From positions 1 to 27,862 of IMG/VR virus record IMGVR_UViG_3300025000_000354: 27,862 nt of DNA. One strand, 5' to 3'. A model generated the notes under the pieces. That model was not told the origin of the DNA. It did no database searches and saw only the letters and a list, made by a program, of their open reading frames with translations. A program made the position numbers and the translations under genes. Below are positions 21,302-25,854 of this stretch, in pieces. Each line of letters opens with the position of its first letter. Position 1 is the first letter of the stretch. This DNA is from a virus.

Positions 21302-21565
21302 ATGTCGCAGATAAAACCAAAAGGAAAATATGACGGCTACTGGGAGATGCGGGAGGGAGGGCCTTATGACGCAGGGGACCCGGTCTTTAAGTGCACCGGC
21401 TGTAACACTGTGACCGAGATGGATAAGGACTGGAACGGCGAGCCCAAGCCAGGCAGGTGCAAGAAGGGGTGTCCCAACCATGAGCATGCCACCACCGACT
21501 GGCGGCCCGGCGCGGTAAGCAAAAAGTATGCGATAAATTATGCAGCGGTATTCGGGCATGATTAA
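21302..21565 (+). CDS. Small putative zinc-binding protein between terminase and portal
   Basis: 87-aa protein with AGGAGAAGC before the ATG. It contains CTGC (residues 31-34) and CKKGCPNHEH (about 53-62), giving four Cys and two His for one zinc site. The rest is polar and Gly-rich (GYWEMREGGPYDAGDP). Placement between terL and portal suggests a packaging or head-assembly accessory. It overlaps the portal gene start. Similar small Cys proteins exist next to N4-gp56-type head genes as far as I recall, but no function is established. Confidence 0.65.
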   Translation: MSQIKPKGKYDGYWEMREGGPYDAGDPVFKCTGCNTVTEMDKDWNGEPKPGRCKKGCPNHEHATTDWRPGAVSKKYAINYAAVFGHD

Positions 21566-23399
21566 TCTGAGCGCCGTGCGGCAAAACGCCATGTATCCGC
21601 TGCTTGACAGTTTCCGGCGAATCATGCGTAACGGGAAAAGCGTCCCTGACCAAAAGGAGCAGGCGGAAAGGGAGCAGGCGGCCCGGCGCTACTCCATGGA
21701 GGACGAACAGCATCTGGTGGATTACTGCATGGATTGTGTCAAGACGGATGCAAGTTCACGTCGGGAGGTGCGGCAGGCGCAGGCGGAATGTTACCGGGTG
21801 TACAAAGAAAAGGAACCTGCCTCTTTTGCCCGTAAGGCGGCATGGCAGAGCAGGATTGTGGTGCCCAGACCATACGCCACGGTGCAGTTCGCCGCCGCCG
21901 CTATCCGTAAAAGTTTTTCCCCTGATTTTCTCAGTATCGAGGACCCTGTGGTGCAGGCGGCGGCGGATTTCTGGAAGAAGGTAATGTCTGTCCAGTTGGA
22001 CAGCCGACACGCCAACTTCGTTATCCGCTTTGTCGATTCCACCACCATGGGACTGGCGGTGGGGGAATCGATGGACATGAAGCCGCGCTGGATACCGGGC
22101 AAGGGCCTGTATTATGAGCTGATCGAGCCGTGGAAGATCAGCCGGGATCCGGACGCCGTGCCAAGGGACCCCCAGTCCGGAGTTTTCTGGATCCACCAGG
22201 AGTGGAAGGATTTCTATCAGCTCAAGCTGCTGGCTGACAAGAAGCTGCTGCAGAACATTGATGAGGGTTTTAATGTCAACGACGAAGACCCGGACAATCC
22301 TTTTATGACCAAGGAGGCCCTGGCGGCCCGCAAGGATCAGATCTGGACCAGGTCAAAATTCAGGAAAATGGGTCGGGTCTATGAGTTTTTTGGCACGGTG
22401 CTGTCCCCCCGCGGTGAATCGCTGCTGCCAAGGGCGACATACAGTGTCATGGGCGGACGGTTGATCAAGTCCCCCATGGGGCTACGCTACCGCACCCTGC
22501 GCTGGCCGAGCGTCATGTTTTCCCCGCAGCCAGACCTGCTGCAGCTTGGCGGCCGCGGCCTGCTGGAGGGGGTCCGCTCCATCTGGGAAGCCATGTGTAA
22601 TCTGATGTGTCTGCATGAGGATGCCATGAAATGGCTGGTCAATCCCATGACCGAAATTAATGTCGATGCCCTGGTTGATCCGGAGGATGTCAAAACAGCC
22701 CCCGGCCGCACCTATCTGACCCACGACAGTCTGAATGGCCAGCAGGCTGTTCGTCCGGTGTCCCGCCGCGATGTGACGAATTCCACCCTGGCCAACATGC
22801 AGTATCACGACCAGAACTATCAGCGCGGGACGTCTGTGTCAGACAGCGTACAAGGCCTGCCCGGTTACCGACAGGATATCACCTGGCGGGAAAGCGAGCA
22901 GAACCTCGGACAGGCCATGGAAGTGTTTAACCTGATGGGCACCAACGTGGAGTTGGGCGCCATCCAGGGACTCAGCGCCGGGCAGGAGGTGGTCGAGGCA
23001 TTTGCCGGCTGGAAGGATTACCAGGAGATGCTGGGCGATGAGGGGGTAAGCAAATTCGGCTTGCGGTTAGGGCAGGATGGGGTCATCGATGGCCTGCCAA
23101 GGATGAGCGGGGCTTTTCATGTGTCGGGTATTCAGAAGCTGATGAAAGACGCCGAGACGGTATCCACCCTGATCCGCACCATTATCCCCCTGGCCGGCAA
23201 CCCGAGGTTCGCCCCGTTTATTATGCCCTATTCGGTGCTGAAAGCCATGGAGCGGCGCACCGGCCTGCAGGATGAAAACATTTTTATTCCCAAGGAAGTT
23301 GGAGAGAAATTACAGCAGCTGCAGCTGCAGCAGATGCTTGCCGGATCTCCGCCCCCCCCTGATTCCGGCGGCGGAGACCAATCAGGAGGGCAGCCATGA
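21558..23399 (+). CDS. Portal protein
   Basis: 613-aa protein read as the portal ring subunit, through which DNA enters and exits the head. Supporting features: size, position right after terL, the N-terminal helical region with RAARRYSMEDEQH-like charged helices, KAAWQSRIVVPRPYATVQFA, a wing-like region (YYELIEPWKISRDPDAVPRD), and a C-terminal Gln-rich helix (KLQQLQLQQMLAG) plus a Pro/Gly tail, typical of large portals of podovirus type. ATG 21558 overlaps the previous stop; ATG 21540 is an alternative. No clear ribosome site, so coupling is likely. Stop overlaps the next ATG (ATGA). Confidence 0.82.
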   Translation: MINLSAVRQNAMYPLLDSFRRIMRNGKSVPDQKEQAEREQAARRYSMEDEQHLVDYCMDCVKTDASSRREVRQAQAECYRVYKEKEPASFARKAAWQSRIVVPRPYATVQFAAAAIRKSFSPDFLSIEDPVVQAAADFWKKVMSVQLDSRHANFVIRFVDSTTMGLAVGESMDMKPRWIPGKGLYYELIEPWKISRDPDAVPRDPQSGVFWIHQEWKDFYQLKLLADKKLLQNIDEGFNVNDEDPDNPFMTKEALAARKDQIWTRSKFRKMGRVYEFFGTVLSPRGESLLPRATYSVMGGRLIKSPMGLRYRTLRWPSVMFSPQPDLLQLGGRGLLEGVRSIWEAMCNLMCLHEDAMKWLVNPMTEINVDALVDPEDVKTAPGRTYLTHDSLNGQQAVRPVSRRDVTNSTLANMQYHDQNYQRGTSVSDSVQGLPGYRQDITWRESEQNLGQAMEVFNLMGTNVELGAIQGLSAGQEVVEAFAGWKDYQEMLGDEGVSKFGLRLGQDGVIDGLPRMSGAFHVSGIQKLMKDAETVSTLIRTIIPLAGNPRFAPFIMPYSVLKAMERRTGLQDENIFIPKEVGEKLQQLQLQQMLAGSPPPPDSGGGDQSGGQP

Positions 23400-23710
23400 G
23401 CGGCACAGAGGTCGATATTGTCACCGGCTTACCCTTAGAACTGGTGGAGCGGGAGCGGCAGCAGGCGGCTGAGGCCGAGGATAAAGGCACCATGCTGCGT
23501 CAGGCTGGGTTCATGGGGGTGGCGGAAAGCGAGGCGGCAGCTGTGCTGCTGGGGCTGATCGAGGAGCGTCTGACCGCCAGGGTTCATACCCTGGTCAGTC
23601 TTGATGCTGAGGCCAAGGCCTTCATCGAACTGCTGAAGAAATTCGGAGAGCGGAAGTTTTCCGCCCAGCTGGCCGCCAAGGAGCTGGTGCGGAAGTACGG
23701 GAAATCATAG
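23396..23710 (+). CDS. Small helical head-region protein, 104 aa
   Basis: 104-aa protein with AGGAGGG about 5 bases before the ATG, which overlaps the portal stop. Highly charged and helical: ELVERERQQAAEAEDKGTML, GLIEERLTARVHTLVSLDAE and FAERKFSAQ-like C-terminal helices ending RKYGKS. The position between portal and scaffold suggests a structural or assembly accessory. No family recognised. Confidence 0.7.
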   Translation: MSGTEVDIVTGLPLELVERERQQAAEAEDKGTMLRQAGFMGVAESEAAAVLLGLIEERLTARVHTLVSLDAEAKAFIELLKKFGERKFSAQLAAKELVRKYGKS

Positions 23711-23715
23711 CAATC

Positions 23716-23856
23716 AGTCCGGCCCCTTAAAAAAGGACCACGCCGGACTTTATAAACAGCGGCCCCTCACAGAGGACCACGCCGCACCAAACAGTGGCCC
23801 CTCACAGAGGACCACGCCGCACCAAACAGTGGCCCCTGCAAACAGGACGACGCCAC
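23716..23856 (+). ncRNA. Tandem array of four two-stem hairpins in scaffold leader
   Basis: Four units occupy the 161-base gap before the scaffold gene; units two and three are exact 35-base tandem copies apart from one base. Each forms an inner stem, CCTN pairing with NAGG, inside an outer stem. Inner pairs: CCTT/AAGG (23725/23733), CCTC/GAGG (23765/23772 and 23800/23807) and CCTG/CAGG (23835/23843). Outer pairs: AGTCCGG/CCGGACT, GCGG/CCGC, GTGG/CCGC (one G-U) and GTGG/CCAC. The joiner ACCACG (ACGACG in unit four) is kept. Unit four ends directly at the GGGAGG ribosome site. Compensatory changes indicate a selected RNA structure, perhaps controlling scaffold and capsid expression. Confidence 0.75.
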
Positions 23857-23871
23857 GGGAGGTTTTTGACC

Positions 23872-24888
23872 ATGCCAACAGGTATTGATCTTGAGCAAGC
23901 GATGAAAGACGGCGCCAGTATTTTCCAAATGCCGCCTGCGGAAAGCCAGGGAAATGGAGCGCCGCAGGCAGGCGTAAAGCCGGAGGCGGGTGAGTTGCCA
24001 GCCGCAGGCGTAAAGCCGGAGGCGGGTGAGTTGCCAGCCGCAGGTGTAAAGCCGGAGGTGGGAGAGTTGCCAGCCTCAGGTGTAAAGCCGGAGGTGGGAG
24101 AGTTGCCAGCCTCAGGTGCAAAGCCGGAGGCGGGTGAGTTACCCGCTGCAGGTGCAAAGCCGGAGGCGGGCAGTCCAGCGCCATCCCCCAGGTTTAAGAC
24201 CCATGACGATGCCGAGAAAGGCTATACCGCGCTGCAGTCAAGGACCACTAAAACGGAGCAGGAAAATGCCGAGCTGCGCAGGCAGCTGGCCAGTTACCAG
24301 GCAGAGCAGGCCGAGAAAGCCAAACAAAACAAGCAGGGCGAGATCCGGCAGTTTGCCGTCACCAAAAACAAGGAGGCCCTGGCTGCCATCAATCAGCTGA
24401 ATCCTGAATCATCAGATCATGATCAGCGGGTGGCGGAGATCTGGGCCGAGGCAAATATGGCGGTGGATGATTTCCGGATGAGCAAACAGGAGCCATCCCC
24501 GCCGCCAGCGGCCGGACAACCGCCGGCCGGCAATGACAATGATGCCGGTGATGACTCCAGCGCCCTGGTAACCGGCATGCTGGATGCCGAGAATTTTTCC
24601 GAGGCGGAAAGAATTGCCTTCTGGGGTTTATCCAGATCCGCACCAACCCATGGCCCGGACGGGGCCAAATTAACCCTTCAACAGCAAATCTCCATGACCA
24701 TGGAGAAAGCCAGGCAGCACAATGCGGCCCAGCGCAGCCAACTCATGCAGGAGCTGAATCTGCCCCTGGAGCGCGGCGGGAGTTACTCCGGCCCTGCCCC
24801 CGGGGAGGACGCCAGGCAGTACGCCAATAGGCAGTTGTCCCTTGATGATGCCATGCAGGAGGCTGACCGCGGTCGCACCTTAGCCTGA
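23872..24888 (+). CDS. Probable head scaffolding protein with N-terminal 12-aa repeats
   Basis: 338-aa acidic protein directly upstream of the capsid gene, the usual scaffold position. After MPTGIDLEQAMKDGASIFQM come five full and one partial copies of a 12-residue repeat (VKPEAGELPAAG type, about residues 35-101), then a coiled-coil region (TEQENAELRRQLASYQAEQA, EKAKQNKQGEI), a disordered Pro/Gly stretch and a helical C-terminus ending DAMQEADRGRTLA, suited to capsid binding. GGGAGG about 9 bases before ATG 23872 sets the start, adjoining the hairpin array. Scaffolds guide prohead assembly and leave before or during packaging. Confidence 0.78.
   Translation: MPTGIDLEQAMKDGASIFQMPPAESQGNGAPQAGVKPEAGELPAAGVKPEAGELPAAGVKPEVGELPASGVKPEVGELPASGAKPEAGELPAAGAKPEAGSPAPSPRFKTHDDAEKGYTALQSRTTKTEQENAELRRQLASYQAEQAEKAKQNKQGEIRQFAVTKNKEALAAINQLNPESSDHDQRVAEIWAEANMAVDDFRMSKQEPSPPPAAGQPPAGNDNDAGDDSSALVTGMLDAENFSEAERIAFWGLSRSAPTHGPDGAKLTLQQQISMTMEKARQHNAAQRSQLMQELNLPLERGGSYSGPAPGEDARQYANRQLSLDDAMQEADRGRTLA
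23974..24174 (+). repeat. 36-bp coding tandem repeat in scaffold gene
   Basis: Five full units starting at 23974, 24010, 24046, 24082 and 24118, and a partial sixth at 24154. Each encodes a variant of [VA]KPE[AV]GELPA[AS]G. The first two units are nearly identical, which shows recent expansion. The Pro/Glu/Gly/Ala content suggests an extended flexible segment. Confidence 0.93.
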
Positions 24889-24903: not shown

Positions 24904-25854
24904 ATGTTTACATGGACTTATGACGCAACGGACGGGGTATGGAAAAACCACGCCCTGTCCAACGAATTACTGAAGATCGCCGCCCGGGATTTCGTCCTGG
25001 TGCGGTTTACAAAGAAGCAGCCGAATTTCGGCGCCGGCATGGGGCAGAGCGTAACCCTGCCCTATTACAAAGCCCTGGACGAGCCGGACACCCCGCAGCT
25101 GGATGAGCGGATGCGGGTGCCCATCGATGAATTGGAAATGGCCGGCCGGTCCATCACTGTGGTGGAGTGGGGCCGTGGTTGCGGTTACACAAATCTGGCG
25201 GATGAGTTTTCCAAGGTTTCCCCCAAGAAGGGCGGCCAGAAGCGGCTGCTGGACCAGATGAACGCCTGCATGGATACCGGGGCCGCCGCCGGGTTCAAGG
25301 AAGCTAAGGTGTGTTTTACACCAACCTCAGCTTCCGCCGGCACCATCGATACGGATGGGGCTCACAGTGTGGCGGCCACCAGCAATCTGACCGCCGCCCA
25401 TGTCGGCCTGATCAGGGACTACATGGTTAATGACCTGCATGTGCCGTACTTTGAGGGCGGCGACTATATCGGCACCGTGGCCACTAAGGGTCTGCGCGGC
25501 CTGAAAAACGATACCGCCCTGCAGGAGTGGCATAAGTACCTGGCCAAGGGTGACATCATTTTTAAAAGCGAGGTGGGCAAGGTGGAGAATGTCCGCTTTG
25601 TCGAGGTGAGCCACGAGCAGGCCCTGTCCAACGGGGTCGGCACCGGCAGCGTGCTGGGCGAAGGGCTGATCTTCGGAGACGACGCCGTGCGCCGGGTCGA
25701 GGTTGATTCCCCGCACCTGCGGGCGGATCCAAACTATAAGGGCGATTTCGGCCGGCGTAAGGCGATTATCTGGTATGGCCTGATTGCCTTCGGCAGCACA
25801 TTCATGACAGCGGATGACCGCGAAGCCAGAATCGTGCGTATCGGTTCCCTGTAA
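24904..25854 (+). CDS. Major capsid protein, N4-gp56 family
   Basis: 316-aa major head protein. It matches the N4-gp56-type capsid family: N-terminal ALSNELLKIAARDFVLVRFT, GAGMGQSVTLPYYKALDEPD, LEMAGRSITVVEWGRGCGYT, the central RDYMVNDLHVPYFEGGDYIG and the C-terminal segment KAIIWYGLIAFGSTFMTADD. Residues IDELEMAGRSITVVE correspond to the E-loop/spine region of the HK97 fold. No protease gene or N-terminal delta domain is seen, so shell assembly relies on the separate scaffold. AAGGAGCGAA lies before the ATG. Confidence 0.9.
   Translation: MFTWTYDATDGVWKNHALSNELLKIAARDFVLVRFTKKQPNFGAGMGQSVTLPYYKALDEPDTPQLDERMRVPIDELEMAGRSITVVEWGRGCGYTNLADEFSKVSPKKGGQKRLLDQMNACMDTGAAAGFKEAKVCFTPTSASAGTIDTDGAHSVAATSNLTAAHVGLIRDYMVNDLHVPYFEGGDYIGTVATKGLRGLKNDTALQEWHKYLAKGDIIFKSEVGKVENVRFVEVSHEQALSNGVGTGSVLGEGLIFGDDAVRRVEVDSPHLRADPNYKGDFGRRKAIIWYGLIAFGSTFMTADDREARIVRIGSL

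Follow-up and report, generated by a model that had tools for sequence, protein, structure and literature searches.

A conserved two-stem module, probably a cis-acting RNA signal, in the leaders of phage scaffold and capsid genes

Introduction

Several described RNA elements can be compared with a structured leader among phage head genes. In RNA phages, a coat-protein operator hairpin serves self-repression or marks assembly, and the MS2-type operator is characterized by one bulged A and an invariant four-base loop. The ribosomal-protein and cis-regulatory leaders of Rfam carry co-varying stems around a kept loop. The put RNA of phage HK022 is a cis-acting leader RNA whose hairpins contain internal loops, and it lies 5' of the terminators that are overcome in early operons. 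In T7, RNase III hairpins between genes and the phi10 leader shape the ends of late mRNAs; the RNase III hairpins have long stems, near 20 bp, without a common loop sequence. Intrinsic terminators combine a GC hairpin with a T run, and the CsrA/RsmE signature is a GGA exposed in a loop. The C-loop, an asymmetric internal loop with one base opposite several in a hairpin, is defined by a specific set of non-Watson-Crick pairs in three dimensions.

We analyzed a stretch of viral DNA of 27,862 nucleotides (the window; IMG/VR virus record IMGVR_UViG_3300025000_000354, positions 1 to 27,862), in which an original prediction, made from the sequence alone, had placed four tandem hairpins before a scaffold gene.

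Results

Four two-stem units in the scaffold leader

The head genes of the window are consecutive and all lie on the + strand. The portal gene (21540..23399) matched phrog_1216 portal and, below the Pfam cut-off, SU10_portal (E 1e-5). It is followed by a 104-aa open reading frame from the ORF list (23396..23710), which lies between the portal gene and the leader, has the same place in relatives and gave no match in the PHROG search. The next gene (23872..24888, 338 aa) stands between the portal and major capsid genes and is called scaffold-like from synteny only; PHROG and Pfam searches returned no match for it. The major capsid protein gene (24904..25854) matched phrog_1357 major head protein (E 9e-14). 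The scaffold-like protein has, close to its N-terminus, a 12-residue repeat of the type AGVKPEAGELPA, encoded by a 36-bp tandem repeat of 5.6 copies (23968-24170).

All four predicted units were found in the leader (23716-23856), and the observation proved wider than first seen. Each unit consists of an outer stem, an unpaired C, an inner stem, a loop, ACNAC and the outer closing arm. On the + strand, unit 1 (23716..23749) reads AGTCCGGC C CCTT aaaa AAGG ACCAC GCCGGACT, unit 2 (23759..23785) GCGGC C CCTC aca GAGG ACCAC GCCGC, unit 3 (23794..23820) GTGGC C CCTC aca GAGG ACCAC GCCGC, with one G-U pair, and unit 4 (23829..23856) GTGGC C CCTG caaa CAGG ACGAC GCCAC. The outer stem is one pair longer than predicted (GGC/GCC), with 5 bp in units 2-4 and 8 bp, not 7, in unit 1. 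The two-stem fold stood as drawn, whereas the internal loop, given as CC against ACCACG, is really C against ACCAC in units 1-3 and C against ACGAC in unit 4. The paired changes had been read correctly, the inner closing pair being T-A, C-G, C-G and G-C across the copies and the outer second pair C-G, T-G and T-A. The last arm does touch the scaffold ribosome site: the Shine-Dalgarno sequence GGGAGG (23857..23862, + strand) lies directly 3' of unit 4, with the scaffold ATG nine bases past it, and this adjacency is repeated in relatives.

Folded alone, each of the four units had exactly the proposed structure as its minimum-energy fold, with energies of -16, -12, -10.1 and -11 kcal/mol for units 1 to 4 (z -3.8, -3.6, -1.9 and -1.6). 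The fold of the whole leader was more stable than that of 199 of 200 shuffles (z -2.95). The near-identical units 2 and 3 represent a recent duplicate in the form of a 35-nt tandem repeat. The four copies in the window alone are therefore thin evidence, and the strong evidence comes from relatives.

Comparison with known RNA elements

Like the MS2-type operator, the unit is a small hairpin with an irregular stem beside a phage ribosome site, a candidate for protein recognition. In place of the bulged A and the fixed loop, it has a 1x4 or 1x5 internal loop (C against AYNAC) and terminal loops that range from 3 to 9 bases and take many sequences, and it occurs in dsDNA phages. With the Rfam leaders it shares the leader placement and the co-varying stems around a kept loop; unlike them, the units are restricted to phage head genes. 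At curated thresholds, Rfam 15 gave no family on the window or on the leaders of 20 or more carriers. A likeness to put RNA lies in the internal-loop hairpins of a phage leader, but the units lie mostly 3' of a terminator, or have none. They also resemble the T7 hairpins in standing between genes of T7-type phages, but their outer and inner stems add up to 7-13 bp in the listed units, shorter than in a T7-type RNase III site. The leader of the window contains no terminator-like site on the sense strand. As regards the CsrA/RsmE signature, most units hold GGA, with the GG paired in the inner stem; in units such as those of loci L145 and L157, where CCGG is followed by CAAC or CGAC, GGA is missing at that place. 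The likeness to the C-loop is one of secondary structure, the unit loop being known as sequence and secondary structure. The motif was not found described in a partial literature search, which took in few subscription journals and did not extend to the 2017 survey that covers 224 structured RNAs.

Elsewhere in the loci, the Rfam 15 matches were to tRNA, group I intron and glutamine-II riboswitch only. Glutamine-II riboswitches were seen in T7-like cyanophages (L286, 1165-1218; L292, 164-219; L185, 3661-3715), where the distance to the capsid gene downstream ranges from a few hundred bases to about 1.3 kb; the one in P-SSP7 directly follows psbA. A group I intron lies just 3' of the motif in a T7-like marine phage contig (L193, 8161-8394), probably within the capsid gene.

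Stem covariation in capsid-gene relatives

Relatives were gathered by capsid alignments, which yielded 80 loci from the third viral scan and 337 relatives altogether. A descriptor was run over both strands of 88 capsid-gene relative loci (547 kb). It required a C between an outer stem with a minimum of 4 bp and an inner stem with a minimum of 2 bp, then a loop of 3-14 and, after the loop, A[CT][AT][AC] or A[CT]NAC. Among the sense matches, 60 of 66 lay in the portal-scaffold gap, the scaffold leader zone being set at -1400 to -800 relative to the capsid start. There were 6 antisense matches in total.

Since the descriptor itself demands pairing, we also picked unit cores without regard to the outer stem, which made the stem test non-circular. 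Outer positions 1 to 5 were paired in 69, 70, 78, 55 and 57% of cases in leaders, compared with about 25% elsewhere or on the opposite strand. We observed 329 outer pairs, against 178 +/- 11 when the arms were reshuffled among units; the maximum in 2000 shuffles was 217. The units were further aligned with a covariance model. Since plain MAFFT alignment of mixed units misplaced the loop, the alignment was seeded with units of nearly equal length. The result comprised 59 distinct sequences. Its cells were paired in 96.7% of cases, both sides had changed in six of the seven pairs, and covariation scored 0.522, compared with 0.113 after shuffling; as this alignment was fitted to the structure, it counts as secondary support. 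GNRA sequences, an RNA signature, made up 14 of 25 four-base terminal loops (p 3e-15). Imperfect outer pairs did not favor G-U (8) over A-C (14), and wobble pairing thus lends no support to RNA.

Individual relatives illustrate these changes. In L127, the nearest relative with changes (capsid 89% identical), the same gap holds three units, and unit 1 differs from that of the window by the replacement of a T-A pair with C-G and the loss of one pair to A-A. In L379 (GACGG C CC cgcg GG ATAC CCGTC), L381 (ACCGA C CC gcaa GG ATAC TCGGT), L385 (GATCG C CCC caa GGG ATAC CGATC) and L150 (ACAGA C CC acac GG ATAC TCTGT), the stems are wholly different and the internal loop is retained. A covariance model of the AYAM form (R1) recovered that form but did not find the ACNAC units when run on the window. 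We joined the two forms as one motif on their common site, common architecture and intermediates within one capsid family, not on one model; examples of intermediates are L314 (ATAAC and ACAAC), L358 (ACTAC with a CCGG outer stem) and L378 (ATAC). The original prediction staked its claim on related phages varying in a paired manner; they do, and the claim survives. Selection on the structure of the units is strongly supported through these relatives, and mere duplication accounts for the near-identity of units 2 and 3.

In the capsid family of the window, the last unit ends a median of 3 nt 5' of the scaffold Shine-Dalgarno site (IQR 2-8). A terminator-like or long hairpin was present in the leader zone of 26 of 67 relatives, just 5' of the unit in the examples inspected. 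Where such terminator-like hairpins occur, they mark the junction between portal and scaffold as a boundary of expression. In L330, L334 and L336, the terminator-like hairpin lies between the small ORF and the scaffold gene and keeps the loop CCGGCGCCGGAATCAATGG with co-varying stems, with the base GCCAAAAA...TTTTTGGC in some of the three. Those of L320 and L340 have another kept loop, CATGTCGGCTGCCGACCCCG. In L153 (3720-3845) and L159 (4110-4225), two units flank a common stretch, GACGYAAGCATTARAGAGRGG ... CCCTCTTTTTTGGCCCC, which may be a further structured RNA that has its own terminator.

Neither gap nor unit was found in L137, L322, L323, L327 and L376, or in the enterobacterial and Vibrio relatives (Vibrio, E. 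coli; L160-L163, L448). The element is thus dispensable. Its absence from some gamma-proteobacterial relatives had suggested hairpins that block RNase J, an idea dropped since Vibrio phage CKB-S2 has the unit.

Occurrence in other phage groups

The simpler core GGCCCGCAAGGAYAMCC was found in at least 120 viral contigs or loci, compared with 16 for the reversed pattern. Among the matches listed, the genes next after the core fell into 39 groups at 110 loci. A major head protein came next at 76 of these 110 loci (13 groups by PHROG, phrog_3437 and phrog_267), and a scaffold-like gene at 13 more, some of them named by position or appearance only; the viral contigs are unannotated, and scaffolds there take their names from position. 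Among cultured phages, a unit precedes the capsid gene in Synechococcus S-CBP2, Prochlorococcus P-SSP7 and P-SSP6, Rhizobium RHEph01, Bordetella BB8, Roseobacter CRP-403 and Vibrio CKB-S2; the outer stems of P-SSP6, RHEph01 and BB8 are imperfect. In four complete genomes, the capsid-leader match was the best or nearly the best genome-wide. The unit was not found in Acinetobacter TPWB-05, Alcaligenes Piluca and E. coli vB_EcoM_APEC, phages in which the scaffold and capsid genes abut.

Across these leaders, the module takes the form of an outer stem, a single unpaired C and an inner stem of 2-6 bp, often GNRA-capped, with A-Y-(N)-A-C (or AYAA and similar) on the 3' side before the outer closing arm. 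Modules occur singly, in tandem or nested in one hairpin, the nested form being present in many of the leaders matched by the core. In phrog_3437 capsid leaders (L257, L177, L187, L219, L198), two or three C / AYAC modules are stacked in one long hairpin, up to about three in L219 and L198. The distance from the unit to the capsid start codon is about 35-120 nt in T7-like and pelagiphage-type leaders, compared with about 15 nt to the scaffold start in the window.

A scan for the subtype of the window matched 54 contigs. The non-coding matches were nearly all before scaffold genes of the window's capsid family, and the remaining ones, inside open frames, were chance-like. The exact pattern CCCCTN{3,8}AGGACCACG was rejected, as its matches were mostly due to chance and the outer stem was missing. 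In 395 genomes of the host phylum, the one to which a MAG bearing a related capsid belongs, the core pattern gave 2 matches against 3 for its control, and the window form gave 4, fewer than its control. Neither form being enriched there, a host cis-element was rejected.

Discussion

The unit of the window belongs to a module of defined structure, with co-varying stems around a kept asymmetric loop, which lies on the sense strand in leaders of several unrelated phage groups. Its recurrence before these genes makes it highly likely that the motif is an RNA signal, undescribed in the literature searched, which governs capsid-gene expression. As to function and binder, we infer that it is best explained as a conserved cis-acting RNA module, a factor-recruiting leader that would raise or time scaffold-capsid translation or mRNA stability (probability about 0.6). 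Through the kept internal loop, an RNA-binding factor or the ribosome may make specific contact with the module. Docking at the loop would cause the scaffold-capsid part of the late mRNA to be translated more, or at a set time, and probably to be stabilized. Scaffold and capsid would then be abundant relative to the portal encoded just upstream. The median of 3 nt between the last unit and the Shine-Dalgarno site points to translation initiation in the window's family, and the translational control originally proposed fits this spacing. However, the distances of 35-120 nt in other families indicate that direct masking of the ribosome site is not the general mechanism.

One rival explanation is that the hairpins protect a 5' end, which would arise by cleavage or at a start close by, and stabilize the scaffold-capsid mRNA with translation untouched. 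The terminator-like or long hairpins in 26 of 67 leader zones would create a transcript boundary there, and the variable spacing in other phages suits a general 5' shield. However, a stable stem would suffice for this purpose, yet it is the stems that change and the internal loop that is kept exactly; the close Shine-Dalgarno spacing in the window's family is left unexplained, and the leader of the window has neither a boundary hairpin nor a match to a + strand promoter. We consider end protection or processing rather unlikely. The units might instead form an operator at which a scaffold, portal or capsid protein represses its own synthesis or marks assembly. The coat-protein hairpin of RNA phages is a precedent, the motif is always beside head genes, and tandem copies could titrate a protein. 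This role appears improbable, as one loop precedes capsids of PHROG families 1357, 3437 and 267, and the scaffolds downstream have no match in common. The spread of the motif over capsid families that are not related speaks against simple self-regulation by a single type of capsid.

An action on RNA polymerase at the portal-scaffold boundary, through an attenuator or a put-like antiterminator, would account for the terminator-like hairpins between or just before units in L153, L154, L159 and L217. Most unit-bearing loci, the window included, have no such terminator, and where there is one the unit is usually 3' of it, whereas a put-like element must be 5'. The late genes of T7-like carriers are transcribed by a phage polymerase. 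We regard this mechanism as still more doubtful than the operator. A role at the DNA level, as a single-strand hairpin or a recombination boundary that aids the exchange of head modules, would suit the position at a module boundary, the sharing between unrelated phages and the lack of preference for G-U over A-C. The restriction to one strand relative to transcription, the enrichment of GNRA loops and the adjoining Shine-Dalgarno site render it very unlikely indeed.

Returning to a leader that recruits a factor, a wider reading can be offered tentatively. The C / AY(N)AM module may be a capsid-expression signal common to several unrelated dsDNA phage capsid families, which reads a conserved component of the host. 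The hosts span cyanobacteria, alpha-, beta- and gamma-proteobacteria and Desulfobacterota, and the component might be, for example, the ribosome, a ribosomal protein or an RNase complex. Tandem and nested copies would then set the strength of capsid synthesis.

Scaffold and capsid are needed in hundreds of copies per portal, and it is seldom known how phages tune this inside a single late operon. A short, defined motif common to unrelated phages provides a handle on this tuning, as it can be excised, mutated or used as bait for the factor that reads it. The motif would also be an RNA family missing from Rfam, useful for recognizing the capsid operons of uncultured viruses, and might serve as a part with which to adjust expression in bacteria.
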